DNA of 64,000 bases from Microbacterium sp. Nx66 (GTDB taxonomy: Bacteria; Actinomycetota; Actinomycetes; Actinomycetales; Microbacteriaceae): the NCBI RefSeq assembly GCF_904066215.1, contig NZ_LR880474.1, positions 124,001-188,000 of the forward strand, written 5' to 3'. The notes beneath the pieces are model-generated. The model did not search any database. It saw nothing but the letters and a program-made list of their open reading frames with translations, and was not told where the DNA came from. A program made the position numbers and the translations under genes. Shown here in pieces: positions 42,944-57,115 of the stretch. Every line of letters begins with the position of its first letter. Position 1 is the first letter of the stretch.

Positions 42944-44515
42944 ATGCTGACCCATTCGCCACCCGTCCGACCCCGCTCGGGACGGAGCCGCATCGCCCGC
43001 CGCGTCGCCGCCGTCGCCATGATCGTCGGCGGATTCGTCGGAGCCCTGCTCGTCCCCGTCGCGGCGACCGCGGCCCCGCCGTACACGACCGGCGCGACGG
43101 TCGAGTCCCTGGCCTTCACGGAGACGGCCGTCGCCAGCGGCACGAAGGCCGAGCTGACCGGCACCTGGTCCCTGCCGGACAACCCGGTCGCACCTGCCGG
43201 CTTCGTCGTCGAGCTCCCCGAGGGCCTCCGTGGGCTGCCGGACACCTTCCCGTTGCTCGACGCGGCGGGAGCTGAGGCGGGACGCTGCGTGACGACCGCC
43301 GCGCAGCTCGTCTGCGACATCGACAGCGCTTACCTCGAGGAGCACCCCGTCGGTCTCTCCGGAGGCTTCTCCTTCTGGGCGACGGTGACCACCGAGGTGA
43401 GCGAGACCACCACGGTCACCTACGACTTCGGTGACGTCACCGCTTCCGTCGATGTGAAGCCGGACCCCTTCATCTGCACGACCGACTGTGACTTCCGAGG
43501 CCGCGCGGACTTCAAGAGCGGGGAGTACCAGAACACCTCGGACACCATCGCGTGGGACGTCGCCGTCGGGGCGGGAGCGAAGGGCATGGCCGCGGGTCAG
43601 GAAGTCGTCGTCACCGACGTCATCGGCTCCGACCAGGAGCTCCTGCGCGAATCCGCCGCCGGGGAACGCTACCCGTCGCTGTGGGTCGCCACCGGTCTGC
43701 AGACCCTCCCCAGCGGTCTCGTCGTCCCGGGGCCGGTCACCGAGGTCGCTGCCGCCGACTACACCGTCTCCGCCGACGGGACCACCGTCACCTTCACCGC
43801 CGTCGAGGGCGGCTTCTACAACGTGCACTACCTCTCGCGGGTGACCGACGACGGTGCGGCCGACACCTACCGCAACGCCGCCGAGATCCGGGTCGGCACC
43901 GAGACATCGTCGACGGTCACGTCGGAGGTCACCCGCCACGGCGGCTCGGGGACGGGGAACGGTACGCGCGTCGGGCGCTTCACGGCGCTGAAGACCCTCA
44001 GCGGTCCGGCGGCCGCGACCGAGCGGATCCCCGCCGGGACCCGGTACGTGCTGGAGTACACGTACCCGGCGGGGCCGGGCTTCCCGGCGGGCTCGGGGGT
44101 GCTCGATCTCGAAGCCGGATCGCCGGTGACGAGCCCGGCGCTGCCTGCCGGCGCGGAGGTCACGGTCCGCGAGCGGGCGCCGGAGCCCGTGGCCGGCACC
44201 GCCTGGGGCACGCCGGTGATCAGCCCGGAGCGGTTCACGGTGGGGGACCAGACCGTCACCGTGGGCGTGCAGAACCCGGTGGCCGTCGTGCCCCCGCCGC
44301 CCGTTCCGGCCACGCCGAGCACGCCGGCCACCCCGGCCACGCCGAGCACGCCGGCGACGCCGAGCACGCCGGCGACGCCGGCGGGCACTCCCGGGGGCTC
44401 GCTGGCCACGACCGGCGGGGAGATCGCGACAGCGGGTCTGCTCGCCGGGGTGCTGCTTCTGGGGATAGGAGGTGCGCTGGCGGCCGCGCGACGCGCACGC
44501 CGCGGGAACCGCTGA
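42944..44515 (+). CDS. Adhesin-like surface protein with LATTG sorting signal
   Basis: This 523-residue protein has a signal peptide (IARRVAAVAMIVGGFVGALLVP, then ATAAPP), two Ig-like beta-sandwich regions reminiscent of bacterial adhesin domains (residues ~50-170 and ~180-320), a DUF5979-like domain (beginning FTALKTLSGPAAAT), a Pro/Thr stalk of TPATPS repeats, and a C-terminal LATTGG, membrane helix and RRARRGNR. GGAGGAA precedes the ATG. It is expressed from copy 2 of the sigma element. The likely place is the outside of the wall, covalently attached by a sortase not encoded in this window. Confidence 0.87.
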   Translation: MLTHSPPVRPRSGRSRIARRVAAVAMIVGGFVGALLVPVAATAAPPYTTGATVESLAFTETAVASGTKAELTGTWSLPDNPVAPAGFVVELPEGLRGLPDTFPLLDAAGAEAGRCVTTAAQLVCDIDSAYLEEHPVGLSGGFSFWATVTTEVSETTTVTYDFGDVTASVDVKPDPFICTTDCDFRGRADFKSGEYQNTSDTIAWDVAVGAGAKGMAAGQEVVVTDVIGSDQELLRESAAGERYPSLWVATGLQTLPSGLVVPGPVTEVAAADYTVSADGTTVTFTAVEGGFYNVHYLSRVTDDGAADTYRNAAEIRVGTETSSTVTSEVTRHGGSGTGNGTRVGRFTALKTLSGPAAATERIPAGTRYVLEYTYPAGPGFPAGSGVLDLEAGSPVTSPALPAGAEVTVRERAPEPVAGTAWGTPVISPERFTVGDQTVTVGVQNPVAVVPPPPVPATPSTPATPATPSTPATPSTPATPAGTPGGSLATTGGEIATAGLLAGVLLLGIGGALAAARRARRGNR

Positions 44516-44634: not shown

Positions 44635-46056
44635 ATGAGCGACGAACGCAGAGACGAGGAGAGGGAACGCGACGCGGACCTGCTGGACCGGGTCCGCGGG
44701 GGTGACGAGCAGGCCTATGCGGAGCTGTGGGAGCGCTACGCACCCGCGGCGGCGGCCGTGGCCCGCAGCTACTGGTGGTCAGCCGATGCCGACGACCTCG
44801 TCGCAGAGTCCTTCACCCGCATCTATCAGGCGATCCAGGCCGGGAAGGGGCCGACGGCCGCGTTCAAGCCGTACCTGTTCGCCACGATGCGCAACCTCGC
44901 CATCAGCTGGGGCCGCGCCCGTCGCGAGGTGCCCATCGAGTACATCGAGGCGGTGGAGGACCCGAACAGCACGGATGCCGCGGCCGACGCCGATTTCGAC
45001 GCCTCGCTCGTCTCGCAGGCCATCCTGGCCCTGCCGGAGCGCTGGCAGGACGTGCTGTGGTTCGGCGAGGTCGAGCACCTCTCCATGCACGAGATCGGCA
45101 AGCGCCTCGACATCAGCGAGCGCGCGGCCGCGGTCCTCGCCTTCCGTGCCAGGGAGGGGCTCCGGCAGGCCTGGATCACCGCGCACGTCGCGGCCCGCCC
45201 GCCGGCCTCCCGGGAGTGTCAGTGGACGATGGGGAAGCTGGGCGCGCACGCCCGCCAGCGCCTCACGCCCCGGGACACGGCCCGTGTGCACGCCCACCTC
45301 GACGAGTGCGCCGACTGCCGCGCCAAGGCCGAGGAGGCGCGTCACGCCAGCTCGCGCATGCTGTCCGTCCTCTTCCCCGCCGGCATCACGGTGGGGGCCG
45401 GTGCGCAGATCTGGCAGTCGCTGACATCTGCCGGACTGTCCGCCAGCGCCGCCCCGCTGCCGCCCGCGATCGCCGCTCCGGTCGCAGGTATCGCTGCGGC
45501 GAAGGCCACCATCGGTATCGTGGCCGCGGTCACCGCGACGACGCTCGCGGCGACCGTCGCCGCCACGGTGGTCGGGGGCACCGCCGTGGTCGCGGCGCCC
45601 GCCGCCACGGAGGTCGTGACGTGGAGCGTACCCACCCCGGTCCCATCCCCGGAGGCGACATCCGCCCCGGCGGCGACGCCGGTCGCGAGCCCTCCGCCGT
45701 CGGCCGCGCCGGAGCCCTCCGCTCCTGCAGCGCCGCCGCCGGAGCCGGAGCCGGAACCCGCCCCCGAGGCGAGCGTGCCGAGCGCTCCTGTCCTCATCGA
45801 CGTGCCAGGACAGGTCTCACGCACCGAGCTGCTGTCCGTGACCGTGGCGTGCGAGGTCGGTGCCGACCTCACGGTGTCCGCCTACGGCGCCACCCTGGCG
45901 GCGGGGACGTGCGCGGCGAACGAGCGATGGCAGGCGAGCTTCCGCGTCGACGCCTATCCGGTGCCCGCCGGGACCGCGGTGACCCTGAGTTTCGCGCAGT
46001 CCAACATCGCCGGGATCTCCGGCGCGGCGAGCGCGGAGGTGGTCATCGTGGATTGA
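44635..46056 (+). CDS. ECF sigma factor fused to zinc-finger anti-sigma motif, membrane helix and outer domain
   Basis: Of 473 residues, 25-95 are sigma region 2 (DLVAESFTRIYQAI, then MRNLAISWGRARR) and 125-180 are region 4 (ALPERWQDVLWFGEVEHLS, MHEIGKRLDI). Residues 221-228 hold the HxxxCxxC zinc-finger of ZAS anti-sigma factors (H221, C225, C228). A membrane helix lies at ~291-322. The outer part is a Pro/Glu/Ala stalk (340-385) and a small beta domain (385-473) with two Cys. One polypeptide therefore joins sigma factor, anti-sigma and sensor, and must be cut or rearranged to release the sigma part. GGAAGGGAA precedes ATG 44635. It sits inside the surface island and is the best candidate to read the GCGTAAT/GTCTCAT promoters. 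Confidence 0.9.
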   Translation: MSDERRDEERERDADLLDRVRGGDEQAYAELWERYAPAAAAVARSYWWSADADDLVAESFTRIYQAIQAGKGPTAAFKPYLFATMRNLAISWGRARREVPIEYIEAVEDPNSTDAAADADFDASLVSQAILALPERWQDVLWFGEVEHLSMHEIGKRLDISERAAAVLAFRAREGLRQAWITAHVAARPPASRECQWTMGKLGAHARQRLTPRDTARVHAHLDECADCRAKAEEARHASSRMLSVLFPAGITVGAGAQIWQSLTSAGLSASAAPLPPAIAAPVAGIAAAKATIGIVAAVTATTLAATVAATVVGGTAVVAAPAATEVVTWSVPTPVPSPEATSAPAATPVASPPPSAAPEPSAPAAPPPEPEPEPAPEASVPSAPVLIDVPGQVSRTELLSVTVACEVGADLTVSAYGATLAAGTCAANERWQASFRVDAYPVPAGTAVTLSFAQSNIAGISGAASAEVVIVD

Positions 46057-46159: not shown

Positions 46160-48256
46160 ATGAGGAAACGATCGGGCGCCTTCGTGCTCGGATTGCTGCT
46201 CGCCCTGGGTACCGTCGCTGCCGCGGCACCCGCTGACGCCGCGACGGGAGCCGCGACCATCGTCGACGCGAACACCGGCCGGTTCACGCTGCCGGACGGC
46301 ACGATCGCCACCGCCACACTCGCCGGCGGCTCCCGCATCTTCGGCGGCGAGGGTAAGACGCTGAGCTCCTGGAGCGGCACGGACGCCATGTACGCGGCCG
46401 GTGTCTCGGCGAAGGACCTCGCGACGCTCGACGTCCACTCGAACGCGAACTGCGGGACGTCGTCGCGCTGCGGCGAGGGACAGCTCACGATCACGTTCGA
46501 TCGCCCGGTCGACGATCCCGCGATCCACATCGCCGAGTTCGGCGCCGGGACCGGCGGTACCGGACTCGGCGGGATCTCGGTCGCGGACGGCATCCGCTTC
46601 GCCTCCTCCGACGGCGGCGCCACCCGTGCGGTCGTCTCCGACGGCGCCACTTTCGTGGACGGAGGCGACGGCTACTCCCGCGGCGACATGAGGATCTCCT
46701 GCACCGCGGCCTCGCGCCCCGGGGGCTGCGGAAGCTTCACCGTCCCGGGCACCAAGATCACCCGGATCGTCTTCGATGTCGCCCGCTCCGCCCTCGGCGG
46801 CACGCAGACCGCAGCGCTGGACGGCTACGCCCTCGGGGTGACCGCCACCGCCACGCCGGACCCGAAGGTCGCCGGACTCTCGATCGCCAAGGTCGTCGAC
46901 AAGGCCGCGGCCGCACCGGGCGACGTCCTCGACTACACCATCACCGTCCGGAACACCGGCGAGGCGGAGGCCCGTCAGGTGCCCGTGACCGACACGCTTC
47001 CCGCCGGGCTGCGCGATGCGACGGCCGATCAAGGCGGCGTGGTCGCCGACGGCGCGGTCGCCTGGACGATCGACGCCCTTCCCGCCGGCGGCACGAGCAC
47101 CCTGCACGTCTCCGGGACCGTCGACCGCGCAGGCGCGGGCGCCACCCTCGTCAACCGCGCCGTGGTGGAGAACCCCGCCGGTGTCCCGGCCGAGACGCCG
47201 GCGCCCACGTCCTCCACGCCGTGTGCGGACGACGCGAGTGTCGCCTGCGCCTCCACGGTCGTCGCCGCCCTGCCGGCGTTGTCCCTCGCGAAGACCGTCG
47301 ACAAGCAGGTCGCCGGCCATGACGAAGCGCTGTCGTACACCCTGGTCGTCGGCAACGCCGGGACGGCCCCGGCGACCGATGTCCCCGTGACCGATGTCCT
47401 TCCGCCCGCCTTGACCGCGGTCGCGGCCGATCAGGGCGGCGTGGTCGCCGACGGCGCCGTCCACTGGACGCTCCCCGAGGTCCCGGCCGGCGGCGAGGTC
47501 GTGCTGCACGTGACCGGCACGACGCCGGGAGGTCTCGACGAGGCCCAGCTCGTGAACCGCGCCACCGTGCAGAACTCCGCCGCTGCGCCGAACGGGACGC
47601 CCGCGCCGACGGTGACCACCCCGTGTCCTGACGACCCCCAGCAGGCATGCGCCCTGACCGCGGTGGCCCCGCTCGCCTCGTTGGAGATCGACAAGACCGT
47701 GGCGCAGTCCGCCGCGCCGGCGGGGTCCATCCTCGACTACACGATCACCGTGTCGAACGTCGGCCCCGGTGCTGCGACGCAGATCCCCGTCGTCGACGAC
47801 CTGCCCGACGGTGCGCGGTTCATCGCCGCCTCGACCGGGGGCGTCGCCGTGCAGGACAGGGTGGGCTGGGTTGTGCCGGAGCTCGGCCCCGGGGAGTCGG
47901 CCACGATGACCCTCCGCGCGCAGCTGCCGCGGGACGCCGAGGGCACCGTCGTCAACCGCGCCACCGTCGCCTATGACGAGTCGATGATCGCCGGCCTGCG
48001 GGCAGCGGCTGTCCAGGCCGGGATCGTCGTTCCGGACGACCTGTCCGGCCTCCCCGCGCCGCCGCCGCTGTCGGCGACGCACGCCTGCGCGGACGACGCG
48101 CAGTGGTCGTGCGCGGCGACCGTCGTCCGTGCCCCTGCCGCTGCAGGGCTCGCGCAGACGGGCGGCACGCCGCTCTCCGTCCTCCCCGCGATCGCGCTGC
48201 TGGCGGGTGGAGCTCTGCTCCTCATCGTCTCCGCGCGTCGCGCGACCCACCGATAA
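46160..48256 (+). CDS. DUF11-repeat surface protein with LAQTG sorting signal
   Basis: The 698 residues comprise a signal peptide (AFVLGLLLALGTVAAAAPADA), an N-terminal beta module (GQLTITFDRPVDDPAIHIAE), three DUF11 repeats (starting LSIAKVVDKAAAAPGD, LSLAKTVDKQVAGHD and LEIDKTVAQSAAP), and a C-terminal LAQTGG with membrane helix and Arg-rich tail. Repeats 1 and 2 share an ADQGGVVADGAV stretch. The N-terminal module resembles that of the secreted DUF11 protein at 52.4 kb. A structural, wall-anchored role is inferred. The fused sigma gene lies directly upstream. Confidence 0.88.
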   Translation: MRKRSGAFVLGLLLALGTVAAAAPADAATGAATIVDANTGRFTLPDGTIATATLAGGSRIFGGEGKTLSSWSGTDAMYAAGVSAKDLATLDVHSNANCGTSSRCGEGQLTITFDRPVDDPAIHIAEFGAGTGGTGLGGISVADGIRFASSDGGATRAVVSDGATFVDGGDGYSRGDMRISCTAASRPGGCGSFTVPGTKITRIVFDVARSALGGTQTAALDGYALGVTATATPDPKVAGLSIAKVVDKAAAAPGDVLDYTITVRNTGEAEARQVPVTDTLPAGLRDATADQGGVVADGAVAWTIDALPAGGTSTLHVSGTVDRAGAGATLVNRAVVENPAGVPAETPAPTSSTPCADDASVACASTVVAALPALSLAKTVDKQVAGHDEALSYTLVVGNAGTAPATDVPVTDVLPPALTAVAADQGGVVADGAVHWTLPEVPAGGEVVLHVTGTTPGGLDEAQLVNRATVQNSAAAPNGTPAPTVTTPCPDDPQQACALTAVAPLASLEIDKTVAQSAAPAGSILDYTITVSNVGPGAATQIPVVDDLPDGARFIAASTGGVAVQDRVGWVVPELGPGESATMTLRAQLPRDAEGTVVNRATVAYDESMIAGLRAAAVQAGIVVPDDLSGLPAPPPLSATHACADDAQWSCAATVVRAPAAAGLAQTGGTPLSVLPAIALLAGGALLLIVSARRATHR

Positions 48257-48268
48257 CCACTGATCGCG

Positions 48269-48300
48269 TCAGCCACGGGGGACCTCCCTCCGGGGGCTGA
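48269..48300 (+). terminator. Weak hairpin between surface-protein and polysaccharide operons
   Basis: TCAGCC pairs with GGCTGA, with G- and C-rich inner segments, 12 bp after the LAQTG gene stop and 15 bp before the epimerase start. It could attenuate rather than end read-through, since no other promoter is evident for the downstream operon. Confidence 0.35.
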
Positions 48301-48315
48301 TCGAGGTACCCAGAA

Positions 48316-49464
48316 ATGCACTTCTCACAGTCCACTTCGTCCGTTCCGCTGCCGAAAGGCTCCGTCATGATCGTCTTCGGGACCCGTCCCGAGATCATCA
48401 AGCTCGCCCCGCTCGTCCGCGAACTGGGAGATGCCGCCTTCGTCGTCCATACCGGGCAGCACTACGACCCGGGGATGTCCCGGGTGTTCCTCCGGTCCTG
48501 CGGGATCGAGCGCGTCGATCTCCAGCTGCATGTCGGCGGTCTCCCGCGCGCGGCGCAGATCGGGCGCGCCGCCGAGCAGATCGCCGAGGCCATCACCCGC
48601 TTCGAGCCGCGGTACGTCGTGGTCCAGGGCGACACGAACGCGACGTTCGCCGCCGCTCTCGCCGCGAATGCCGCAGGGGTGCGCCTCGGGCACGTCGAGG
48701 CGGGACTGCGGGCGCACGATCGCCGGATGCCCGAGGAGCACAACCGGGTGATGGTCGACCACATCGCTGACGACCTGTTCGCGGCGACGGCGGCGAACCG
48801 TGCCAACCTCCTCGCCGAGGGCATCGACGAGGAGCGCATCCTCGTCACCGGCAATCCGGTGGTGGAGGCGGTGCGCGCCCAGCGCGCGGGCGCGGCCGGC
48901 GATGCGGACGAGCTCGCGCGGCTCGGATTGACGCCTGCCGGCTTCGTCCTCGCCACCCTGCACCGTCAGGAGAACGTGGACACTCCGGAGAACCTCCTGG
49001 CCACCCTCCGCGCGTTCAACGCGATCGCGGCGTCGGGGTGGCCCGTCGTGTTCCCCGTGCACCCACGCACCAGGGCGATGCTCACCTCGCTGGACGCCAC
49101 GCACCTCCTGGACGCACTGATCGCCGAGGAGCCGCTCCCCTACGAGCGGTTCCTGGCGCTCGCCGCCCACGCCGCTCTGCTGGTCTCCGACTCCGGCGGC
49201 ATCCAGGAGGAGGCGACGGTGATCGGCCGCCCCGTCCTCGTCGTGCGGGACTCGACCGAGCGCCCCGAGGCGCTGGGCGCCTTCACCCGGCTCGTCACCC
49301 CGCAGGAGCTCGCTCCGGCCGCCTCCGCCCTGCTCGGCGCGGTGGAGCCGACCCTCGCCCGACTCGCCACCCTGCCGTCCCCCTTCGGCGACGGGCAGGC
49401 CACCGCGCGCATCGCGGCGCACATCCGCAGCACCGTCGCCTCGACCCGCACTGAGGAGTCCTGA
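48316..49464 (+). CDS. wecB: UDP-N-acetylglucosamine 2-epimerase (WecB family)
   Basis: This protein of up to 382 residues has the family motifs MIVFGTRPEIIKLAPLV, VHTGQHYD, QGDTNATFAAAL, HVEAGLRAHDRRMPEEHNR and SDSGGIQEEA. It converts UDP-GlcNAc to UDP-ManNAc for surface polysaccharide. ATG 48316 has GAGG 9 bp upstream, while ATG 48367 with AAAGG gives the more usual N-terminus (MIVFGTRPE, 365 residues); both are possible. It is first of four genes linked by 1-bp TGATG overlaps. Confidence 0.93.
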   Translation: MHFSQSTSSVPLPKGSVMIVFGTRPEIIKLAPLVRELGDAAFVVHTGQHYDPGMSRVFLRSCGIERVDLQLHVGGLPRAAQIGRAAEQIAEAITRFEPRYVVVQGDTNATFAAALAANAAGVRLGHVEAGLRAHDRRMPEEHNRVMVDHIADDLFAATAANRANLLAEGIDEERILVTGNPVVEAVRAQRAGAAGDADELARLGLTPAGFVLATLHRQENVDTPENLLATLRAFNAIAASGWPVVFPVHPRTRAMLTSLDATHLLDALIAEEPLPYERFLALAAHAALLVSDSGGIQEEATVIGRPVLVVRDSTERPEALGAFTRLVTPQELAPAASALLGAVEPTLARLATLPSPFGDGQATARIAAHIRSTVASTRTEES

Positions 49465-49688
49465 TGTACAGCAACGCCCTGACCACCCCGCTCGCCACGG
49501 TCGGCGCCCTCGCCGTCACAGGTCCGGAATCGATGACCACCTGGGTCATGGCGGCGGGGATCGCGGTGACCGTGGGGGCGGGGCTGCTCCTGCGCACCCG
49601 CCTGCTGCGGCGGTCGGCGCCGGCTCCCCGCCCGATCCGTCGGTCCGTCGCGCCGGAAGAGGACCCGGCGCCGGGGAGGACACCCTGA
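49464..49688 (+). CDS. 74-residue mini-protein resembling an isolated LAVTG sorting signal
   Basis: The first 15 residues are short and polar (MYSNALTTPLATVGA), followed by LAVTG (16-20), a hydrophobic helix (WVMAAGIAVTVGAGLLL), an Arg-rich cluster (RTRLLRRS), and a ~25-residue Pro/Arg cytoplasmic tail. The middle is very similar to the C-terminal sorting signals of the surface proteins in the same region. There is no cleavable signal peptide of usual length. ATG and stop overlap the epimerase and GT genes by one base each, with GAGGAG as ribosome site, so it is a real part of the operon. It may be a partner, decoy or carrier peptide for the exosortase. Confidence 0.75.
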   Translation: MYSNALTTPLATVGALAVTGPESMTTWVMAAGIAVTVGAGLLLRTRLLRRSAPAPRPIRRSVAPEEDPAPGRTP

Positions 49689-51046
49689 TGTTCCCGGTGC
49701 TCAACGCGTTCACGGTCCTGCTCGGCGTCGCGTTCGTCACGTACGTCCTGTTCATCCTCATCCCCTATCTCCGTTATCCGAAGACCACCCCGGGCGATCC
49801 GGCGAGCTTCGAATGGCACTTCTTCATCCCGTGCCGGGACGAGGAGGCGGTGATCGATACGACCGTGTCGCGGGCGCGGCGGGACTTCCCCGGCGCCCAC
49901 GTCTGGGTGATCGACGACGACAGCGAGGACGCCACGGCGTCGATCGTCACCCGATGGGCCGAGGCCGACGAGCACGTGCATCTCGTTCAGCGCCGTCGCC
50001 CCGAGGCGCGGACTGGCAAGGGCGACGCACTCAACGCCGCCTATCATCAGCTCCTGGCCTGGCTCCCCGCAGACGCCGACCACGATCGGATCGTCGTCGT
50101 CGTCATCGACGCGGACGGCGAGATGGAGCCCAACGCCCTCGAGATCTGCGCCGCCGACGACATCTTCGGCGACGAGAGCGTGGGGGCGGCGCAGATCGCG
50201 GTCTGGATGAAGAACCGCGACGACCCGAAGCCCTACCCGCACGGCGGGCGGTTCGCCAACACGTTCGCGCGGTTCCTGCTGCGGATGCAGGATCTCGAGT
50301 TCCGCACCACCATCGCCGCGATGCAGTCGCTCCGGGCGAAGACCGGGACCGTGGGGCTGGGCGGCAACGGCCAGTTCACCCGGCTCTCCGTGCTCGATGC
50401 GATCGGCGACACCTTCGGCGAACCGTGGCACGGCGCCCTGCTCGAGGACTACGAGCTGGGCGTCCATGTCGTGCTGGCGGGCTACCAGGTCCGCCACGTC
50501 TACGACACGCACGTGAACCAGGAGGCGCTGCCCTCGATCCGCCGTCTGCTCACGCAGCGCACCCGGTGGGCGCAGGGGAACATCCAGTGCGTCAAGTACA
50601 TCCGCGAAGTGCTGAAGTCGCCGTACGTCGACAACGCCGGGGTCATCGAGACCGTGTACTACCTCGTGCTGCCCTTCCTCCAGATGCTCGGAGGGCTCTC
50701 GTTCCTCATCCTGTTCGGCGCCCAGGTCGGGTACTGGGTGCAGCAGCCGGAGCTCTTCCAGGTCGCGCTCGGCGACACCCTCGGCGTCCTCGGGCTGCTG
50801 TTCGCCTTCTCCGTCGCCCCGTTCGCCGTCTGGGGGTTCGTCTACAAGATCCGCTGCGAACCCCAGGCGAGCTGGCTGACGGCGCTGGGGTGGGGGCTCG
50901 GGGTGTGGCTCTACGTCTATTACATGTACATCTGCATCGCGCGGGCGTTCCTGCGCATCGTCCGGGGCAAGAACGGATGGGCCAAGACACGCCGCAATGC
51001 GGAGGCCCACGTCGTCGTCAACGGATCCGTCGCCGTGGAGGCCTGA
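49688..51046 (+). CDS. Family 2 membrane glycosyltransferase, processive type
   Basis: This 452-residue protein starts with one membrane helix, then has the GT2 domain with conserved acidic sites: Asp in WVIDDDSEDA, the DAD motif in VVVIDADGEMEPNA, LEDYELG and QRTRWAQG (the QxxRW motif of processive synthases). Three further membrane helices follow near the C-terminus. The QxxRW motif implies synthesis of a polymer at the membrane. Encoded between the mini-protein and the exosortase, it likely extends a polysaccharide using a UDP-sugar such as UDP-ManNAc from the adjacent epimerase. Confidence 0.93.
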   Translation: MFPVLNAFTVLLGVAFVTYVLFILIPYLRYPKTTPGDPASFEWHFFIPCRDEEAVIDTTVSRARRDFPGAHVWVIDDDSEDATASIVTRWAEADEHVHLVQRRRPEARTGKGDALNAAYHQLLAWLPADADHDRIVVVVIDADGEMEPNALEICAADDIFGDESVGAAQIAVWMKNRDDPKPYPHGGRFANTFARFLLRMQDLEFRTTIAAMQSLRAKTGTVGLGGNGQFTRLSVLDAIGDTFGEPWHGALLEDYELGVHVVLAGYQVRHVYDTHVNQEALPSIRRLLTQRTRWAQGNIQCVKYIREVLKSPYVDNAGVIETVYYLVLPFLQMLGGLSFLILFGAQVGYWVQQPELFQVALGDTLGVLGLLFAFSVAPFAVWGFVYKIRCEPQASWLTALGWGLGVWLYVYYMYICIARAFLRIVRGKNGWAKTRRNAEAHVVVNGSVAVEA

Positions 51047-51639
51047 TGACCACCGTCACCGAAACCCTGCCCGCCCTCCGCGCCCGTCGACTGGATCGGG
51101 TGTCGCCGCCGAACCGTGCCGCGCGGGTGGTCGTGGCCCTGCTGATGCTCGCCGCGGGCGGAGCGCTCCTGGCGGTCAACACCTCCTTCCGCGCCGTCGA
51201 GGCGGTCGTCGCGACGTGGCTGCTCTCGCCGTTCGTCGAGGGCCAGCGCGCGGCGATCGGCGAGCACTATCTCGTCTGGACCCCGACCGGAGACCTGATC
51301 GCTCTGCAGATCACGGTCGAGTGCACAGCACTCCTGATCGGGCTCCCGCTCACCGTGGTCGCCGCGGTGATCCTCGCCTTCACCCGCGTGCGGTGGAGCC
51401 GGCTGTTCGGCGGGCTCGCAGCCATGTGGGGCATCGTCTTCGCGGTCAACATGCTGCGGCTCGTCCTGATCGGCTGGGCCACCCAGACCTGGGGTCTCGA
51501 TCCGGGCTACAAGGTGAGCCACGTGTTCGTGGGTTCCCTCGTCGGCGTCCTGGGGTACGTCGTCGGACTCGTCGTCATGCTCCTGATCATCGGCGTCCGT
51601 GCCCCGCAGCGCCGGAATACTCGCCGTCCGCGGGCGTAA
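51046..51639 (+). CDS. Exosortase/archaeosortase family transpeptidase
   Basis: This 197-residue, multi-helix membrane protein carries the catalytic set of the exosortase family: Cys93 in TVECTALLIG, Arg138 in VNMLRLVLIG and His159 in KVSHVFVGS, at the expected spacing. These enzymes cut C-terminal signals of exported proteins and transfer them to a membrane or polysaccharide acceptor. Its start overlaps the GT2 gene by one base, so it is the last gene of the polysaccharide operon. A promoter element for the next surface gene overlaps its stop codon. Exosortases are uncommon in actinobacteria compared with sortases. Confidence 0.85.
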   Translation: MTTVTETLPALRARRLDRVSPPNRAARVVVALLMLAAGGALLAVNTSFRAVEAVVATWLLSPFVEGQRAAIGEHYLVWTPTGDLIALQITVECTALLIGLPLTVVAAVILAFTRVRWSRLFGGLAAMWGIVFAVNMLRLVLIGWATQTWGLDPGYKVSHVFVGSLVGVLGYVVGLVVMLLIIGVRAPQRRNTRRPRA

Positions 51640-51664
51640 TCGACCCCCGTCCCCACCGTCTCAT
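51634..51664 (+). promoter_or_regulatory. Bipartite sigma-regulon promoter element, copy 4
   Basis: GCGTAAT (51634-51640), 17 nt, then GTCTCAT (51658-51664). The first box contains the exosortase stop codon. The second box is identical to copy 2. The downstream start codon is 51 nt away. Confidence 0.7.
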
Positions 51665-51715
51665 TCGCGGCGAAGCACTCTGCTCGTCGTGTCCACATCA
51701 AGAAAGAGGCTCATC

Positions 51716-52387
51716 ATGAAGAGCATCCTCAAGACCGCGTGCAGCGCCGGTGTCGGCCTGCTGATCGTCGGGGGCTCGCTCCTCGGCGCGCAGGGGGCCA
51801 TGGCCGCCGACCAGCCCGACTCCACCGACGGCGCATCGAGCGGCGGCATCTCCTCGGTCCGCAGCACGGAAGACGTCGACGGTCAGGCCTCGACCCGCGG
51901 CTACCTGGGTCGAGCCACCCAGACGGCCGCGACGGGCGTGACGCCGGGGTCGGAGATCAAGGAGGGCGCGATCGTGCAGCTCGTCAACGACGAGCAGATC
52001 GACGGCGTCTACAAGGTGATCCTGCCCGTGCCGGCGCACACGACCTTCGCGTCGGCGACCAGCGGCGGTCAGCTCGTCGGTGGGAACGTCGTCTGGACGT
52101 TCAACGTCACGCACGACGGCGGCACCAGCATCGTCACCCCGATGGCGACGTTCACCGTCGACGCCGACTACTGGGGTCCGCAGATCACCAACAGCGCCAA
52201 GGTGCTCTACACCGGTGGCGTCTTCACCGACGACCACCGCTTCACCTACAACTACAGCCACACCTTCGCCGAGCGTCCGCCGGTGCCGGTGGCCGATCCT
52301 GCCGTCGGACTCGCGGGTGCCGGTGTGATCGCCGTCGGAGCTGCCGGCGCGTTCGCGCTGCGTCGTCGTCCCTCGGCGACCCGGTGA
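51716..52387 (+). CDS. Small exported protein with short exosortase-like C-terminal signal
   Basis: The 223 residues include a signal peptide (ending AQGAMAADQ), a beta-rich body of ~150 residues and a C-terminal ADPAVGLAGAGVIAVGAAG, then AFALRRRPSATR. The tail has motif, short hydrophobic stretch and Arg cluster, as in exosortase substrates, and its GLAGAG lines up with GLAQTG of the neighbouring LAXTG protein but lacks the Thr-Gly pair. AAAGAGG precedes ATG 51716. It starts 76 bp after the exosortase gene and is the most likely direct substrate of that enzyme. Confidence 0.8.
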   Translation: MKSILKTACSAGVGLLIVGGSLLGAQGAMAADQPDSTDGASSGGISSVRSTEDVDGQASTRGYLGRATQTAATGVTPGSEIKEGAIVQLVNDEQIDGVYKVILPVPAHTTFASATSGGQLVGGNVVWTFNVTHDGGTSIVTPMATFTVDADYWGPQITNSAKVLYTGGVFTDDHRFTYNYSHTFAERPPVPVADPAVGLAGAGVIAVGAAGAFALRRRPSATR

Positions 52388-52421
52388 CGGGCGCCGGACA
52401 GACACGGAGGAACAGAGACCT

Positions 52422-54164
52422 GTGAAGAAGACATCCTTTCTTCGGGGTGCGCTGACCGTGGGGGTGCTCACCGCTCTGGCGGCGGGCGCCCTCGCGGGTG
52501 CCCCCGCCGCCTCGGCGGCCGACGTCAACGGCTGGAGCGGATCGGGAGACACCCGCACCGCGTCGGCCGCCGGAGCGACGGCCCGCATCACCACCACCGA
52601 CAAGGTGCAGATCAAGAGCTCCGGTGACGTCGTCAATCTCGCCACCGTGCGCGACGGCGGGGAGCTCGGGCTCAACGTGATCGGCCTCAACGAGGGCTAC
52701 CCCTGCAAGAACGGCATCGAGTGCGTCCGCGGGAACGTCGTGGTCGACTTCGGCCAGCAGGTGACGAACCCGAAGATCACCCTCGCCAACCTCGGCGGTG
52801 ACGTGTACTCCATCGGCGGCGTCGTGCAGTCCTCGGCGAAGTACACGCTGAAGCCCTCCGGGGTGAGCCTCAGCGCCGTGAGCGGCAACCTGGACGTGAC
52901 GTCGAACACGATCACCTCGACCTCCTTCGCCGCCAAGACCGGCACGGTGCAGGTCAACGGCACGGTCTCGAAGGTGGAGTTCCAGCTCAGCATGCGCTCG
53001 AAGGGCGCGTTCCTCGGGCTCGTGCCGACCTGGACGAAGGTGCCGAGCGACCTGCACAGCATCGACATCGACGTGGACAAGCCGACGGCGCCCGCGCTGA
53101 CGGTGGACAAGAACGATCACCGCGACAGCGCCGTGATCGGCGACCAGCTCTCGTACGACATCGTGGTGCGCAACACCGGCACCGCTGCGGCGAGCGACGT
53201 CGTCGTCAGCGACGACCTGCCGGCCGGGCTCACCGGTATCACCGCCTCGTACACCGCTGGCACGACCGGTCAGGTGTCGATCACCGGGCAGCGCGTCCAG
53301 GGCACGATCCCATCGCTCGCTCCTGGCGCGTCCTCGACGATCACCGTGAAGGCGACCGTCGGGGCATCCACGCCGATCGGGAACCTGCGCAACAACGCCT
53401 GCGCCGTGGGAACCGCCACGAACCAGGCCTGTGACTGGGACGACACCACCATCACCAAGAAGACCACGCCCGTGCTGACGATCAGCAAGGACGACGGTCA
53501 GGGTGATGTGAAGCTCGGACAGGACCTGACGTACGACATCGTCGTGCGGAACACCGGCGACGGTGCGGCCACGAACGTCGTGGTCAGCGACCCGCTCCCG
53601 GCCGGTCTCGACTTCGTCTCGGGCAACGGCCCGTCGGGTGTGACGGTGAGCGCCTCCGGGCGCACCGTGACCGCCAACCTCGGCACGCTCGAGGCAGGGC
53701 AGTCGGTGACGCTGAAGGTGAACGCCAAGGTCAACCAGTCGGCTCCTCCCGGGGCGCTGACCAACCAGGCCTGCGCGGTCGCCGGTAACGCGGCGAACGT
53801 CTGCGCGACCGACACCGACACCGTCAAGCGCGAGTTCTTCCAGTACACGTTCAACTCGAACCCGACCGACCCGACGCCGGGCCAGGCCGTGACGTACCGG
53901 ATGGAGTTCGGCAACAACGGCAACGTCGACTCGGCGAACGCGGAGATCGCATACACGCTGGCGGGCATCCTCGACGATTCCAGCTGGAACCCGTCGAGCG
54001 TGACGGCCAATCGCGGCACCGTCACCGTGAGCGGCGACAGCATCGACTGGAAGGGACCCCTCGCCTCGGGCGAGACGGTCGTGATCACCTTCACCGGTGT
54101 CTGGAACGGGAACGGCGACGGTTTCGCCTTCCCCAACGTCACCTACTACGGCAGCGCGCGCTAG
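52422..54164 (+). CDS. Secreted DUF11-repeat protein without anchor
   Basis: This 580-residue protein has a signal peptide (VGVLTALAAGALAGAPAASA), an N-terminal beta module (VVVDFGQQVTNPKITLANLGG) like that of the LAQTG protein, and three DUF11-type units (starting LTVDKNDHRDSAVIG, LTISKDDGQGDVKLG and YTFNSNPTDPTPGQ). It ends at FPNVTYYGSAR with no sorting signal or membrane helix, so it is secreted or held by partners. GTG 52422 follows GGAGG at an unusually long spacing. It shares the transcript with the 51.7-kb gene. Confidence 0.85.
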   Translation: MKKTSFLRGALTVGVLTALAAGALAGAPAASAADVNGWSGSGDTRTASAAGATARITTTDKVQIKSSGDVVNLATVRDGGELGLNVIGLNEGYPCKNGIECVRGNVVVDFGQQVTNPKITLANLGGDVYSIGGVVQSSAKYTLKPSGVSLSAVSGNLDVTSNTITSTSFAAKTGTVQVNGTVSKVEFQLSMRSKGAFLGLVPTWTKVPSDLHSIDIDVDKPTAPALTVDKNDHRDSAVIGDQLSYDIVVRNTGTAAASDVVVSDDLPAGLTGITASYTAGTTGQVSITGQRVQGTIPSLAPGASSTITVKATVGASTPIGNLRNNACAVGTATNQACDWDDTTITKKTTPVLTISKDDGQGDVKLGQDLTYDIVVRNTGDGAATNVVVSDPLPAGLDFVSGNGPSGVTVSASGRTVTANLGTLEAGQSVTLKVNAKVNQSAPPGALTNQACAVAGNAANVCATDTDTVKREFFQYTFNSNPTDPTPGQAVTYRMEFGNNGNVDSANAEIAYTLAGILDDSSWNPSSVTANRGTVTVSGDSIDWKGPLASGETVVITFTGVWNGNGDGFAFPNVTYYGSAR

Positions 54165-54172
54165 CCGGAACT

Positions 54173-54234
54173 CAGGCGAACGCGCGGGTGCAGGCCCATT
54201 CCTCTGGGGTGGCCTGTGCTCGCGCGTTCGCCTG
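54173..54234. terminator. Bidirectional terminator after the surface island's DUF11 gene
   Basis: CAGGCGAACGCGCG (54173-54186) pairs perfectly with 54221-54234; inner CAGGCC/GGCCTG arms extend the structure. It separates convergent genes. Confidence 0.88.
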
Positions 54235-54253
54235 TTTCCGCGCGTCCGCGGAG

Positions 54254-54781
54254 TCAGTCGCGGTCGGCGCGGCTGATGAGGTCCATCAGCTCGTCGAGCG
54301 TGTCGACGTCGATGACCTCGGTGCCGTCGGGCTCGCGCACCTCGATGCCGTCGACCTCCAGCTCCTCATCGAGCTGCACGAGGATGCGCGACTCCGGGAA
54401 CTGCCGGGGGGCGACGAACGCGAGCAGCACGGCGTCCGCGAACACCACGACCGACGTGGCCTCGAGGTCGTCCCGCAGGTCGACCTGCTCGACCACCGGC
54501 TCCTCGTCCACCGCATCCTCGATGTCGAGCGCGACCTCCTCGACGATCGCCCGCCACCGCTTCTCGCTCATCGAGAGCACGCGCGCGATGGCCGCCACGA
54601 GCTCGTCCGGATCCATGTCCTCCGCGCTCTCGTCGCCGTCGAGCTCGGGGTCCACGTTCACGTTCACGACGGTGCCGGCGGCGTCCAGGCTCGCCCGTCC
54701 GTAGACGAGACCGTTCTCGGAGACGGGGTCTTCGAGCAGACCGCTCTCGACGATGCGGGACAGGAGGAGTTCGAGCGCCAT
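54254..54781 (-). CDS. Acidic cytosolic protein of unknown function
   Basis: The protein has 175 residues from ATG 54781 (GGAAG ribosome site). It has no signal peptide or membrane segment and a high content of Asp and Glu. The N-terminal half (LELLLSRIVESGLLEDPVSE, then a VVNVNVDPELDGD strand) and the C-terminal half (LVQLDEELEVDGIEVREPDG) look like alternating alpha/beta elements. Homologues are common in Microbacteriaceae as uncharacterised proteins. It is transcribed away from the protease gene at 54.9 kb. Confidence 0.7.
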   Translation of the reverse strand: MALELLLSRIVESGLLEDPVSENGLVYGRASLDAAGTVVNVNVDPELDGDESAEDMDPDELVAAIARVLSMSEKRWRAIVEEVALDIEDAVDEEPVVEQVDLRDDLEATSVVVFADAVLLAFVAPRQFPESRILVQLDEELEVDGIEVREPDGTEVIDVDTLDELMDLISRADRD

Positions 54782-54848
54782 GCTTCCAGTCTCGCGCATC
54801 CTGCCTTCCGCGGCCCCTGGTTCTTCCGCGACCTCGGCCCAGGGTCGC

Positions 54849-54879
54849 GCGTAATCGAACACCCCTTCGCGCCTCTTGT
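54849..54879 (+). promoter_or_regulatory. Bipartite sigma-regulon promoter element, copy 5
   Basis: GCGTAAT (54849-54855), 17 nt, then CTCTTGT (54873-54879). The first box with its flanks (CGCGCGTAATC) is identical to copy 3. It is 55 nt upstream of the subtilase start. The second box is the weakest match of the five. Confidence 0.6.
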
Positions 54880-54934
54880 TCACTGGACCATCCCGACTCG
54901 ACGGCCCAGGGCCGCGTTCGAAAGACAGGCTGCT

Positions 54935-57115
54935 GTGATCCGTCCCCTCTCCCGTTGCATCGGCGTGGCGCTCGCCGTCGGTGCCGCTCTCGCCCTCGCG
55001 ATCCCGTCATCCCCGCTCCCGGCGGCTGCGGAGGTCGCCCCCGACACCCCCGCCCTGAACTGGGTCCTGAACACCGCCCCCGGCGGTCCGAGCGAGGAGA
55101 CGCTGCGTGCGGCCATCGCCGACGCGGGAGGGACGTTCCTGATCTCGTACCCGGAGATCGGGGTCACCGTCGTCCGGGCGCCCGAGGGCGGGTTCGCCGC
55201 GCAGCTCCGCGACCTCCCGTGGGTGCAGTCCGTCGGTCCCACCCGCACGTCGACCACGCCCGACCGCCTCCCCGACCCCGCCGAGTCCGCGGCAGGCGTC
55301 ACGGAGGAACCCGAGGCGATGCCTGCCGAGGGCACCGCGTGGGACACGGTCGCCGTCGGCGCGACGACCCCGGGCGGCGCAGGTGTGGTCGTCGGGGTCG
55401 CGGACAACGGCATCGATGCGGGGCACCCCGACCTCGCCGACCGCATCGACCCCGCTCTCTCGGTCGGCTGCGGCATCAACGGCGTCCCGGACACCCGACC
55501 GGCGGCGTGGGCTCCGGAAGCGGGACTCTCCGGGGCCCACGGGACGCATGTGGCCGGCAGTATCGCGGGTGCTACCGACGGCGCCGGCATCCGGGGGATC
55601 GCCCCGGACGCGCGGGTCGCCGCCATCAAGGTCGACAACCAGACCGGGCACATCTACCCGGAGGCCAGCATCTGCGCCACGATGTGGGCGGTCCGGCACG
55701 ACATCCCGGTCGTGAACCACAGCTATTACGTCGACCCCTGGTACGTCTGGTGCGCCGGCGACGAGACGCAGTCCGCCGCGCTCGAGGCCCTCCGCCGCAC
55801 ATACGCGTACGCGCATGAGCAGGGCGTCGTCACCGTCGCCGCCGTGGGCAACGAGGCGCAGGACCTCGCCACCATGACCACCGATGTCGTCAGCCCCAAC
55901 GACGGTGCACCCGAGCCGCGCCCCGTGGACGCCTCCTGCCTGAAGGCCCCGGCCGGGCTGCCCGACGTGATCTCGGTCGCCGCCGCCGACCAGGACGAGA
56001 CCAGCGGCGCCGTCGTCATGGCCCGATTCTCCAACTACGGAGCGGGCACGGTCACCGTCACCGCACCCGGCGTCGTCTGGTCTGCGGTGACCCGTCAGGA
56101 CGACGGCTCGATCTACGCGCTGTTCCCCGGCACCTCCATGGCCTCCCCGCACGTCGCGGGGCTCGCCGCGCGGCTGCTCGCGGCCGACCCGACGCTCACC
56201 CCGGACGAGGTCACGCGCCGTATCACGGCAACGGCCGACGGGGTCGCGGACGAAGGGCCGGACCGGATGGGCGCAGGCCTCATGGACGCCGACATCGGCG
56301 CCTCCGTCCCCGCCGTCGGCGTCTACTCCCGTGTCGCCCTCACCGGTCAGCCGTTCCGGGTGACGGGCAGCGGGTATCCGCCGCGGAGCCGTGTGGAGCT
56401 TCGCGTGGGCACGGCCACCATGCCGGTGCAGACCGACGGGCAGGGACGGTTCGCGACCGTGTTCCCCATCCCGGCGGATGCCCCTGCGGGCGTGAGCACT
56501 CTGACCGCCGGCGCGGCCCGTGCGCCCATAGTCATCCGCACTTCTCCGGCTGCGCCGACCATCCTCACCCCGAAGGCCGGAACCACGGTCGCGGCGACCA
56601 CCACGACGATCTCGGGTACCGGCGTCCCGGGCTCGCGCGTCCGCGTGCACGTGCGCGACGGGGAGCTCACGCCGTTCCTGCGGTTCGTGACCGTGCGCGA
56701 CGACGGCACCTGGACGGTGGACGCGCCGCTGACGCAGGGGACCTACGAGGTCGTGGCCCGGACGGTCATGGGCACCGACACCTCGGCCACCACCGCGCCG
56801 ATCCGGTTCTCGGTGCACACGAAGTCGGCGATCGGCTACTCGGTCGAGCTGTCCCCGCAGCCGGGAGCCGCGCAGGACACGCTGATCGTCCTGGACCTCG
56901 CCAACGCCGGGGCAGTGGGAGGACGGGCTGTCGTGGACATCGATCTGACGGCGTTCGCGGATGTCGAGGTCCCCGTGCCGCCGGTGGGCGAGGTCGAGCG
57001 GACGGCTCGGGGGCTGCGGTGGACCCTCACGCTGGACTCGGCGCAGAAGGCCCAGCTGCAGATCCCCGCGACCTCCGGCGACGACCCGGCGTTCCCCGTG
57101 ATCGCTGTTCGATGA
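54935..57115 (+). CDS. Secreted S8 subtilisin-like protease with C-terminal Ig-like domains
   Basis: This 726-residue protein has a signal peptide (IGVALAVGAALALAIP then AAAE), a propeptide-like region (residues ~35-115), and a catalytic domain with Asp in VADNGID, His in GAHGTHVAGS, Asn in AAVGNEAQ and Ser in PGTSMASPHVAGL. C-terminal beta domains (residues ~470-726) resemble bacterial Ig-like repeats. GTG 54935 is chosen as start because it gives the signal peptide. It probably matures or turns over surface proteins of the island. It is the last gene with the island promoter element. Confidence 0.93.
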   Translation: MIRPLSRCIGVALAVGAALALAIPSSPLPAAAEVAPDTPALNWVLNTAPGGPSEETLRAAIADAGGTFLISYPEIGVTVVRAPEGGFAAQLRDLPWVQSVGPTRTSTTPDRLPDPAESAAGVTEEPEAMPAEGTAWDTVAVGATTPGGAGVVVGVADNGIDAGHPDLADRIDPALSVGCGINGVPDTRPAAWAPEAGLSGAHGTHVAGSIAGATDGAGIRGIAPDARVAAIKVDNQTGHIYPEASICATMWAVRHDIPVVNHSYYVDPWYVWCAGDETQSAALEALRRTYAYAHEQGVVTVAAVGNEAQDLATMTTDVVSPNDGAPEPRPVDASCLKAPAGLPDVISVAAADQDETSGAVVMARFSNYGAGTVTVTAPGVVWSAVTRQDDGSIYALFPGTSMASPHVAGLAARLLAADPTLTPDEVTRRITATADGVADEGPDRMGAGLMDADIGASVPAVGVYSRVALTGQPFRVTGSGYPPRSRVELRVGTATMPVQTDGQGRFATVFPIPADAPAGVSTLTAGAARAPIVIRTSPAAPTILTPKAGTTVAATTTTISGTGVPGSRVRVHVRDGELTPFLRFVTVRDDGTWTVDAPLTQGTYEVVARTVMGTDTSATTAPIRFSVHTKSAIGYSVELSPQPGAAQDTLIVLDLANAGAVGGRAVVDIDLTAFADVEVPVPPVGEVERTARGLRWTLTLDSAQKAQLQIPATSGDDPAFPVIAVR

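Follow-up and report, generated by a model that had tools for sequence, protein, structure and literature searches.

The exosortase locus and its described counterparts

The PEP-CTERM/EpsH system of Gram-negative bacteria comprises an exosortase, exopolysaccharide genes and a tripartite C-terminal signal (PMC1569441), and the 2006 paper on it reports no PEP-CTERM case among Actinomycetes. An actinobacterial counterpart is already known, since NCBIfam curates the exosortases P, R and S (XrtP, NF012139; XrtR, NF012138; XrtS, NF033767), an XrtP-associated glycosyltransferase (NF053846) and a PVV-CTERM signal (PVV-CTERM choice-of-anchor G; NF051874 and NF033766). The initial annotation of the DNA analyzed here proposed an actinobacterial counterpart with a different signal; the non-PEP signal stands, but the system is not new. 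In comparison with PEP-CTERM/EpsH, the module described here also differs by one strong substrate per genome, a Gram-positive wall and an LPXTG mini-protein.

The window, which is the whole stretch of 64,000 nt and in which all coordinates are counted, contains an exosortase module of actinobacterial origin that belongs to the XrtP/R/S type and has all its genes on the + strand. Its first four genes encode a WecB-type UDP-GlcNAc 2-epimerase (48316..49464; TIGR00236, 289.7 bits with a cut-off of 210.15; PF02350), a mini-protein of 74 aa (49464..49688), a processive GT2 synthase of the family 'XrtP-associated glycosyltransferase' (49688..51046; NF053846, 671.5 bits with a cut-off of 520) and an exosortase of 197 aa (51046..51639). 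As annotated, the exosortase lies in a polysaccharide locus. For the epimerase, an internal ATG (MIVFGTRPE...) is a possible alternative start, and its stop overlaps the start of the mini-protein; all three junctions between the four genes are TGATG overlaps of 1 bp, as previously described. A gap of 76 bp separates the exosortase gene from that of a probable substrate of 223 aa (51716..52387), which is followed by the gene of an exported DUF11-repeat protein (52422..54164; PF01345, 125.4 bits). The earlier placement of the substrate gene under an island promoter was not borne out, as a sigma-70 consensus scan of positions 48100-54400 returned no promoter-like site (weak evidence in an actinobacterium). 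Rfam gave no match in the window.

The exosortase clearly passes the curated cut-off of TIGR04178 (30.1 bits versus 23), in agreement with its initial assignment, and is the sole such match in the genome. The annotated Cys93, Arg138 and His159 are present. Arg138 is invariant in an 18-sequence alignment, in which Cys93 and His159 are missing only in L036, and the counterparts of the C, N, R and H residues are invariant across 54 exosortase sequences. The enzyme is homologous to XrtS, XrtR and XrtP over nearly the whole profiles, but it falls below all three curated cut-offs (96.4 versus 145, 62.9 versus 150 and 55.8 versus 200, respectively), with XrtS as the nearest named subfamily; the glycosyltransferase of the operon, in contrast, exceeds the cut-off of the family named for XrtP. 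No exosortase relative was found in viral contigs, and a sequence search of solved structures with the exosortase set gave nothing at E ≤ 1. Taken as a whole, the explanation that we consider likely is an exosortase module with a substrate that carries a VPVADP tail and with the mini-protein as a partner. Within the module, it is the mini-protein that looks new.

The mini-protein and its association with the exosortase

The mini-protein starts with Met-Tyr and contains a Gly-rich head, an L[AP]xTG motif (LAVTG at residues 16–20 in the window, with just 15 residues preceding it), one transmembrane (TM) segment and an Arg-rich tail. The motif, TM segment and basic tail are matched by the LPXTG-anchor model TIGR01167 (20.1 bits; cut-off 15.9). 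The view of this product as a sorting-signal protein was correct in that a signal is present, but the signal is of the sortase type and not that of the exosortase. From the charge pattern, the N-terminus should be located outside the cell. The mini-protein is unlike a typical sortase substrate, as neither a signal peptide nor a mature domain precedes the motif, judged from the sequence by eye. It has the L[AP]xTG motif, TM segment and basic tail in common with LPXTG/LAXTG sortase signals, and 16 of 26 mini-proteins match NF058583 ('LAXTG motif-containing small protein', LAXTG_small_WW) at E ≤ 0.1. However, the mini-protein of the window is far under the cut-off of this family (17.4 versus 65), and it differs from such proteins in having no signal peptide or cargo domain and in being tied to an exosortase. 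Comparison with its L020 counterpart (13 synonymous and 6 non-synonymous changes; dN/dS 0.18) indicates that the open reading frame is under protein-level constraint. When the 26 mini-proteins are aligned, Met1 and Tyr2 alone are invariant, and the Gly of the motif and the Arg following the TM segment are nearly so. Tyr2 is present in 63 of 65 complete mini-proteins, a count favored by the choice of starts, which were placed at a Met/Val/Leu-Tyr pair whenever possible. L[AP]xTG is present in 61 of 65 (it is absent from L131, L146, L198 and L199, and also from the G022 mini-protein). The head and the motif are linked by a Gly-rich stretch, and only Met-Tyr, the motif and the post-TM Arg stand out. 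A missing sortase was considered as the cause of the degenerate motifs and rejected, as a sortase is present in all 16 genomes tested; an LPXTG scan, meant to compare the mini-protein motifs with the local sortase motif, gave matches in 5 of 11 genomes, a small number for that purpose.

Among 80 named loci, the mini-protein occurs at 66 of the 67 with an intact exosortase (at L135 it is a remnant at a contig end) and, as assessed inside the fetched loci, at none of the 13 related loci without an intact exosortase nearby, although the glycosyltransferase and epimerase are kept there. The Fisher test on these counts gives 4e-14, with loci that are phylogenetically clustered and negatives that perhaps go back to two or three separate losses, in Streptomyces and in a clade of Microbacterium. 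A search blind to the glycosyltransferase located the mini-protein at all eight loci other than the window's own; two of these lie on contigs that also carry loci of the set of 80. No fitting mini-protein was found at 15 loci with other exosortase types; in the phylum set, four pattern matches (two overlapping ones in L246 and single ones in L250 and L260) were excluded as not having the mini-protein layout. Within the genus, an exosortase was found in 18 of 198 genomes and a glycosyltransferase above the cut-off in 19, which are those 18 and G023. G023 yielded no exosortase, and the one in G060 is devoid of the Cys and His; the epimerase and glycosyltransferase are kept in both genomes, and neither has the mini-protein or the substrate at the locus. 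In a mini-protein profile search of the 198 genomes, 123 passed E ≤ 0.001, of which the 16 at E ≤ 5.5e-17 were counted together with G022 (E of 3.8e-6), where the mini-protein adjoins the exosortase; the next-best match elsewhere was 7.3e-11, in G111.

In one lineage, the mini-protein is fused in frame to the N-terminus of the exosortase. Eight database proteins have this arrangement, the query's own included, and the others are 50–74% identical to the query. A model of the fusion protein, with a mean pLDDT of 88.4 and values below 50 for residues 1–12, gave no Foldseek match to solved structures at E ≤ 0.001. Because of the co-occurrence, co-loss and fusion, the mini-protein is assigned to the exosortase and not to the synthase, and these comparisons support its role as a partner of this exosortase type. 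Its inheritance follows the exosortase rather than the polysaccharide genes. It also marks this clade of exosortases cleanly.

Possible roles of the mini-protein

A limited literature search found no paper that names the acceptor naturally used by a bacterial exosortase. As a small and nearly obligate partner whose N-terminus is conserved and which carries a sortase motif, the mini-protein is a concrete candidate for this role, and its near-constant pairing with the exosortase hints at two anchoring systems in series. Our favored reading, doubtful as it still is, is a relay of two enzymes. The exosortase probably cleaves a dedicated exported surface protein, the 223-aa neighbor, at its VPVADP tail, a signal indicated by comparison. 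In the relay, it would join the cleaved substrate to the exposed Met-Tyr N-terminus of the mini-protein, which would act as acceptor or adaptor. The housekeeping sortase would then cut between the Thr and Gly of L[AP]xTG and fix the substrate–mini-protein conjugate to the wall. If this is true, the mini-protein is a one-use adaptor that bridges two unrelated protein-sorting systems, and the relay identifies the exosortase acceptor in these Gram-positive cells.

There is a substantial chance, though one short of even, that the mini-protein is instead a permanent subunit or chaperone of the exosortase, that the motif recruits a sortase or is purely structural, and that nothing is ligated. A permanent subunit accounts for the fusion to the exosortase N-terminus in eight proteins no less well than an acceptor that is consumed, and the degenerate motifs listed above are also consistent with such a subunit. 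However, conserved TM faces would be expected of a subunit, whereas the 26-sequence alignment is invariant only at its first two residues, and retention of the motif in the large majority of mini-proteins would be left unexplained. Another unlikely role is that of an ordinary sortase substrate, in which case the mini-protein would be a short wall peptide and would have only its operon in common with the exosortase; the LPXTG-anchor match and the sortases in all genomes tested fit such a peptide, but its co-loss with the exosortase, the fusion and the near-constant Met-Tyr N-terminus do not follow from it.

The substrate candidate, its tail and neighboring genes

The substrate most likely starts at the ATG at 51716 (223 aa), and not at the start at 51599 given in the list of open reading frames. 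It consists of a signal peptide, one β-sandwich domain and a C-terminal sorting signal of 36 aa (52277..52384), in which VPVADP is followed by a TM segment and RRR. A structural model, with a mean pLDDT of only 59.8, suggests adhesin- and cohesin-like folds. The protein resembles those of PVV-CTERM choice-of-anchor G in its exosortase adjacency, Pro-core, TM segment and RRR tail, and NF051874 and NF033766 match 8 and 7 of 15 proteins of the substrate set at E ≤ 0.1. It differs from them as a small β-sandwich protein with VPVADP, and it has no family match (NCBIfam, including the PVV-CTERM models, or Pfam) at E ≤ 0.1 or E ≤ 1. Similar tails are found again on other proteins encoded next to related exosortases, which makes the 223-aa protein a sound candidate and probably the substrate of the enzyme.

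When the 198 genomes were searched with a tail model, one strong match (E ≤ 3.3e-11, the limit for counting) was found in each of 15 genomes, every one with an exosortase; 69 genomes had matches at E ≤ 0.01, and the next-best match, 1.4e-6, was in a genome without an exosortase. The expectation that a conserved C-terminal signal tracks with the exosortase is upheld comparatively by these 15 genomes, in a test that is partly circular because the model was trained on the same loci. Two automatic rules for tail detection at the 80 loci did not work: the first selected 27 of the 67 intact loci and 1 of the 13 others, and a looser one selected 29 and 5 of them, respectively (p = 1), and 1 of 220 background open reading frames. 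Both rules overlook evident tails and pick up false ones. By eye, a Pro-core tail was recognized at 59 of the 67 intact loci and at none of the 13 others, a subjective count made by a reader who knew the locus status; none was seen at L127, L129, L134, L135, L137, L140, L160 and L185. Together, these sequence comparisons support an exosortase-linked, non-PEP C-terminal signal that tracks with the enzyme in the genus and, by eye, beyond it. The systems of this genus combine a single exosortase with a single strong tail in each genome and are simpler to assay than Gram-negative ones with many PEP-CTERM proteins.

We consider it improbable that the 223-aa protein is merely held by its TM tail and that the exosortase acts on something else. 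The C-terminus does resemble a general TM anchor, and in a leave-one-family-out test the held-out tails ranked high among 353 C-termini yet were intermingled with LPXTG-type anchors, so the tail model is only moderately specific. However, a similar Pro-core ahead of the TM segment recurs on four protein groups that adjoin the enzyme, and the substrate family is absent from G060 and G023.

Judged by their families, the epimerase and GT2 synthase would supply a HexNAc-type surface polymer. Because the mini-protein is lost together with the exosortase, it is very unlikely that it anchors this polymer or that it assists the synthase, whether as a primer or as a small subunit (PgaD/IcaD-like). In the window, its gene does lie between those of the epimerase and the synthase and overlaps each by 1 bp, but it was not found at the 13 loci that have a synthase without an intact exosortase, and one lineage carries it as a fusion to the exosortase. 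The DUF11-repeat protein has no C-terminal anchor. It also adjoins the substrate gene in the relatives L020, L021, L022 and L026 and is a possible surface partner.

Gene content of the exosortase module

The four genes that the initial annotation described as joined by TGATG overlaps all lie within 48316–51639 of the window, and the three junctions were confirmed. In order, they encode a WecB-type epimerase (TIGR00236, 289.7 bits), a mini-protein of 74 residues (49464–49688), a GT2 synthase (GT; 49688–51046) that corresponds to the 'XrtP-associated glycosyltransferase' (NF053846, 671.5 bits; cut-off 520) and presumably produces a polymer, and a protein of 197 residues (51046–51639). The identification of the last as an exosortase was borne out by a profile search (TIGR04178, 30.1 bits, above the cut-off of 23), and its active-site residues are present. 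TIGR04178 matches no other protein in the whole genome (3.46 Mb in two contigs, with the window at bases 124001–188000 of contig 1). The closest named subfamily of the exosortase is XrtS (96.4 bits), but no subfamily was assigned because the enzyme scores below the curated cut-off in each of XrtS, XrtR and XrtP. The close relatives of this genome are Microbacterium, and the GT of locus L122 ('Microbacterium sp. LCT-H2') is 98% identical.

Models already exist in NCBIfam for XrtS, XrtR and XrtP, for the GT and for PVV-CTERM, as well as for a family of small LAXTG proteins, NF058583, which matches 16 of 26 mini-proteins at E ≤ 0.1 (best 3.8e-26); the mini-protein of the window is not above its cut-off. 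Among the listed titles and abstract openings of the literature on exosortases, sortases, PVV-CTERM and LAXTG, none ties an exosortase to an LPXTG mini-protein, and among the matches listed since 2012 no paper has both LAXTG and exosortase.

Co-inheritance of the mini-protein and the exosortase

The exosortase is present in 18 of 198 Microbacterium genomes, and the GT is above its cut-off in 19, namely these 18 and genome G023. The neighboring genes were read in the 17 exosortase genomes other than our own. When our genome is counted, the mini-protein is found at 17 of 17 loci with an intact exosortase (16 aligned sequences, alignment A3, and a divergent one in G022). Genome G060 retains the epimerase, the GT and an exosortase without the Cys and the His, and neither mini-protein nor substrate was found at its locus. 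In the incomplete genome G023, the GT and the final part of the epimerase remain next to a transporter, and no exosortase, mini-protein or substrate was found on that 6.3-kb contig.

A scan based on the GT alignment had 418 relatives, of which the best, 80 named loci, were examined, some of them from the same strains as the genus survey. They span Microbacterium, Curtobacterium, Arthrobacter, Paenarthrobacter, Nocardioides, Lentzea, Herbidospora, Frankia, Streptomyces and others. The exosortase is intact at 67 loci, a Cys-less remnant at three (L142–L144) and absent from ten (nine from Streptomyces and one, L152, that is the G023 contig itself), with absence judged inside loci of mostly 13 kb. 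The mini-protein occurs at 66 of the 67 loci with an intact exosortase versus 0 of the 13 others (Fisher p 4e-14, a value that ignores that the 13 probably represent only two or three independent losses). L135, one of the positives, is a remnant truncated at the edge of its contig and lacks both the motif and a start; the sole exception is L127, where no mini-protein was found in 8.1 kb of sequence. Profile and pattern searches of the 13 negative loci found no mini-protein, the single pattern match (L144) being a 96-residue frame without its layout. The nine Streptomyces loci (L165, L168, L169, L170, L176, L178, L194, L195 and L197) retain the epimerase and the XrtP-type GT, and the stretch examined shows neither an exosortase nor a mini-protein nor any evident tail protein.

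In a search across the class with the XrtP profile, without the GT (ASCERTAINMENT), matches at E ≤ 1e-6 came from 9 of 345 genomes, and in all eight other than our own a mini-protein with Met-Tyr (or Val-Tyr) and L[AP]xTG accompanies the exosortase; two of these contigs, apparently L182 and L166, are shared with the GT set. The general exosortase profile matched 17 of 396 genomes phylum-wide. Among the 16 that are not our own, L259 strongly matches the exosortase profile of this clade (4e-40) and has both GT and mini-protein. No fitting mini-protein was found at the other 15, several on short contigs, whose matches to the clade profile, where there are any, are no better than 1e-19 (the nearest are L258, 1e-19, and L257, 1e-13). 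The mini-protein therefore marks this clade and not exosortases at large.

At L226 (6614–7315), the mini-protein and the exosortase form a single in-frame fusion protein, the mini-protein at the N-terminal end, with Met-Tyr and LPYTG both kept. Residues 1–110 of the fusion, used as a query, identified eight such database proteins, its own and seven at 50–74% identity, which look like one lineage; two are named 'exosortase/archaeosortase family protein', one 'LPXTG-motif cell wall-anchored protein', and five are unnamed.

Layout and possible role of the mini-protein

Among 65 complete mini-proteins, whose starts were set at a Met/Val/Leu-Tyr pair wherever one occurred, Tyr2 is present in 63 and L[AP]xTG in 61, ten of which have LPxTG. 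Those of L139 and L154 begin with Met-Ser, and the motif is degenerate in L131, L146, L198 and L199. In the 61, a head of 10–72 residues separates Met-Tyr from the motif; these heads have 37% Gly and 35 charged residues out of 941. Methionine aminopeptidase does not as a rule remove an N-terminal Met that precedes Tyr, so the Met of the mini-protein should stay on. By the positive-inside rule, the uncharged side of a transmembrane segment lies outward and the Arg side inward; the head, nearly uncharged before the segment that Arg follows, should thus face outward.

That each functional end of the mini-protein carries conserved elements suggests two reactions. The favored but tentative reading, less likely than not, is a relay in which the exosortase would cleave the substrate and join it to the mini-protein N-terminus as acceptor, and the mini-protein would then serve as a sortase substrate. 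A sortase was found in 16 of 16 genomes tested, with a single match in our own. Two findings count against the relay: the degenerate motifs of a few lineages and the in-frame fusion, which is also compatible with a mini-protein that is a fixed subunit of the exosortase. A role with the synthase alone is strongly disfavored by the co-inheritance pattern, in which the mini-protein goes with the exosortase.

The candidate substrate and neighboring surface genes

The gene of the exported 223-residue protein (51716–52387; C-terminal VPVADP, transmembrane segment and RRR) starts 76 bp after the exosortase and is followed by that of an exported DUF11-repeat protein (52422–54164). The latter ends without a C-terminal anchor, adjoins the substrate gene in L020, L021, L022 and L026, and was seen at neither the G060 nor the G023 locus. 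Strong matches to the window-type substrate occur in five genomes, each with the exosortase, and three weak partial matches (E 9e-5 to 7e-4) in genomes without it. Its domain is predicted to be a beta sandwich, only modestly so given a mean pLDDT of 59.8, with weak matches that include adhesin, cohesin and collagen-binding domains (best 9ifr, E 4e-5).

A Pro-containing core, transmembrane segment and Arg cluster end a protein at 14 of 17 genus loci examined. The three others include G046, with a contig of only 3.2 kb; no such protein was found at the G060 locus or near the exosortase of G022, where a protein ∼20 kb away, cut at the stretch end, ends roughly alike. The 14 proteins and that of the window form four groups (window family, choice-of-anchor G, L024/L025 type and L028 type); seven of the 15 match NF033766 and eight PVV_CTERM NF051874 (E ≤ 0.1). 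In blastp with the window substrate (E ≤ 1e-3), L024 (5e-4) and L025 (3e-4) matched weakly, and choice-of-anchor G and L028 gave no match. The cores seen are VPVADP, VPLIDP, SPVIDP, VPVAGPES and APVVEP, and V190, P191 and D194 are invariant in the 11 proteins of the window family.

The earlier proposal that a C-terminal signal tracks with the exosortase found comparative support in a tail profile, which gave one strong match per genome in 15 genomes, all of which have an exosortase (E ≤ 3.3e-11; next best 1.4e-6), a result that is partly circular because these loci also served to train the model. When each group was left out in turn, the held-out tails ranked among 353 C-termini at 1, 3, 4, 9 and 11 (window family), 1 and 2 (L024 type), 1 (L028), and 2–5, 9 and 10 (choice-of-anchor G, with L027 outside the first 14), interspersed with LPXTG-type anchors. 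This comparison supports the 223-residue protein as the probable signal-bearing substrate.

Two surface proteins encoded upstream of the module (42944–44515 and 46160–48256) carry the sortase-type C-terminal anchors LATTG and LAQTG, so sortase-type and exosortase-type cargo lie side by side. The product of 44635–46056 looks like an ECF-type sigma factor whose C-terminal extension has a transmembrane segment and an extracytoplasmic domain; this putative fusion is retained in L020 and L026 and may regulate the surface island. A protein of 1732 residues (28447–33645) that ends in LALTGG, a transmembrane segment and RRRR is probably a large sortase-anchored surface protein. Downstream, an ORF on the minus strand (54254–54883) is kept in relatives as a protein of ∼175–180 residues (MALDLLLSRIVESG...). 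It is overlapped by the long start of ORF 54188–57115, by eye a putative subtilase, whose true start is likely much further in.
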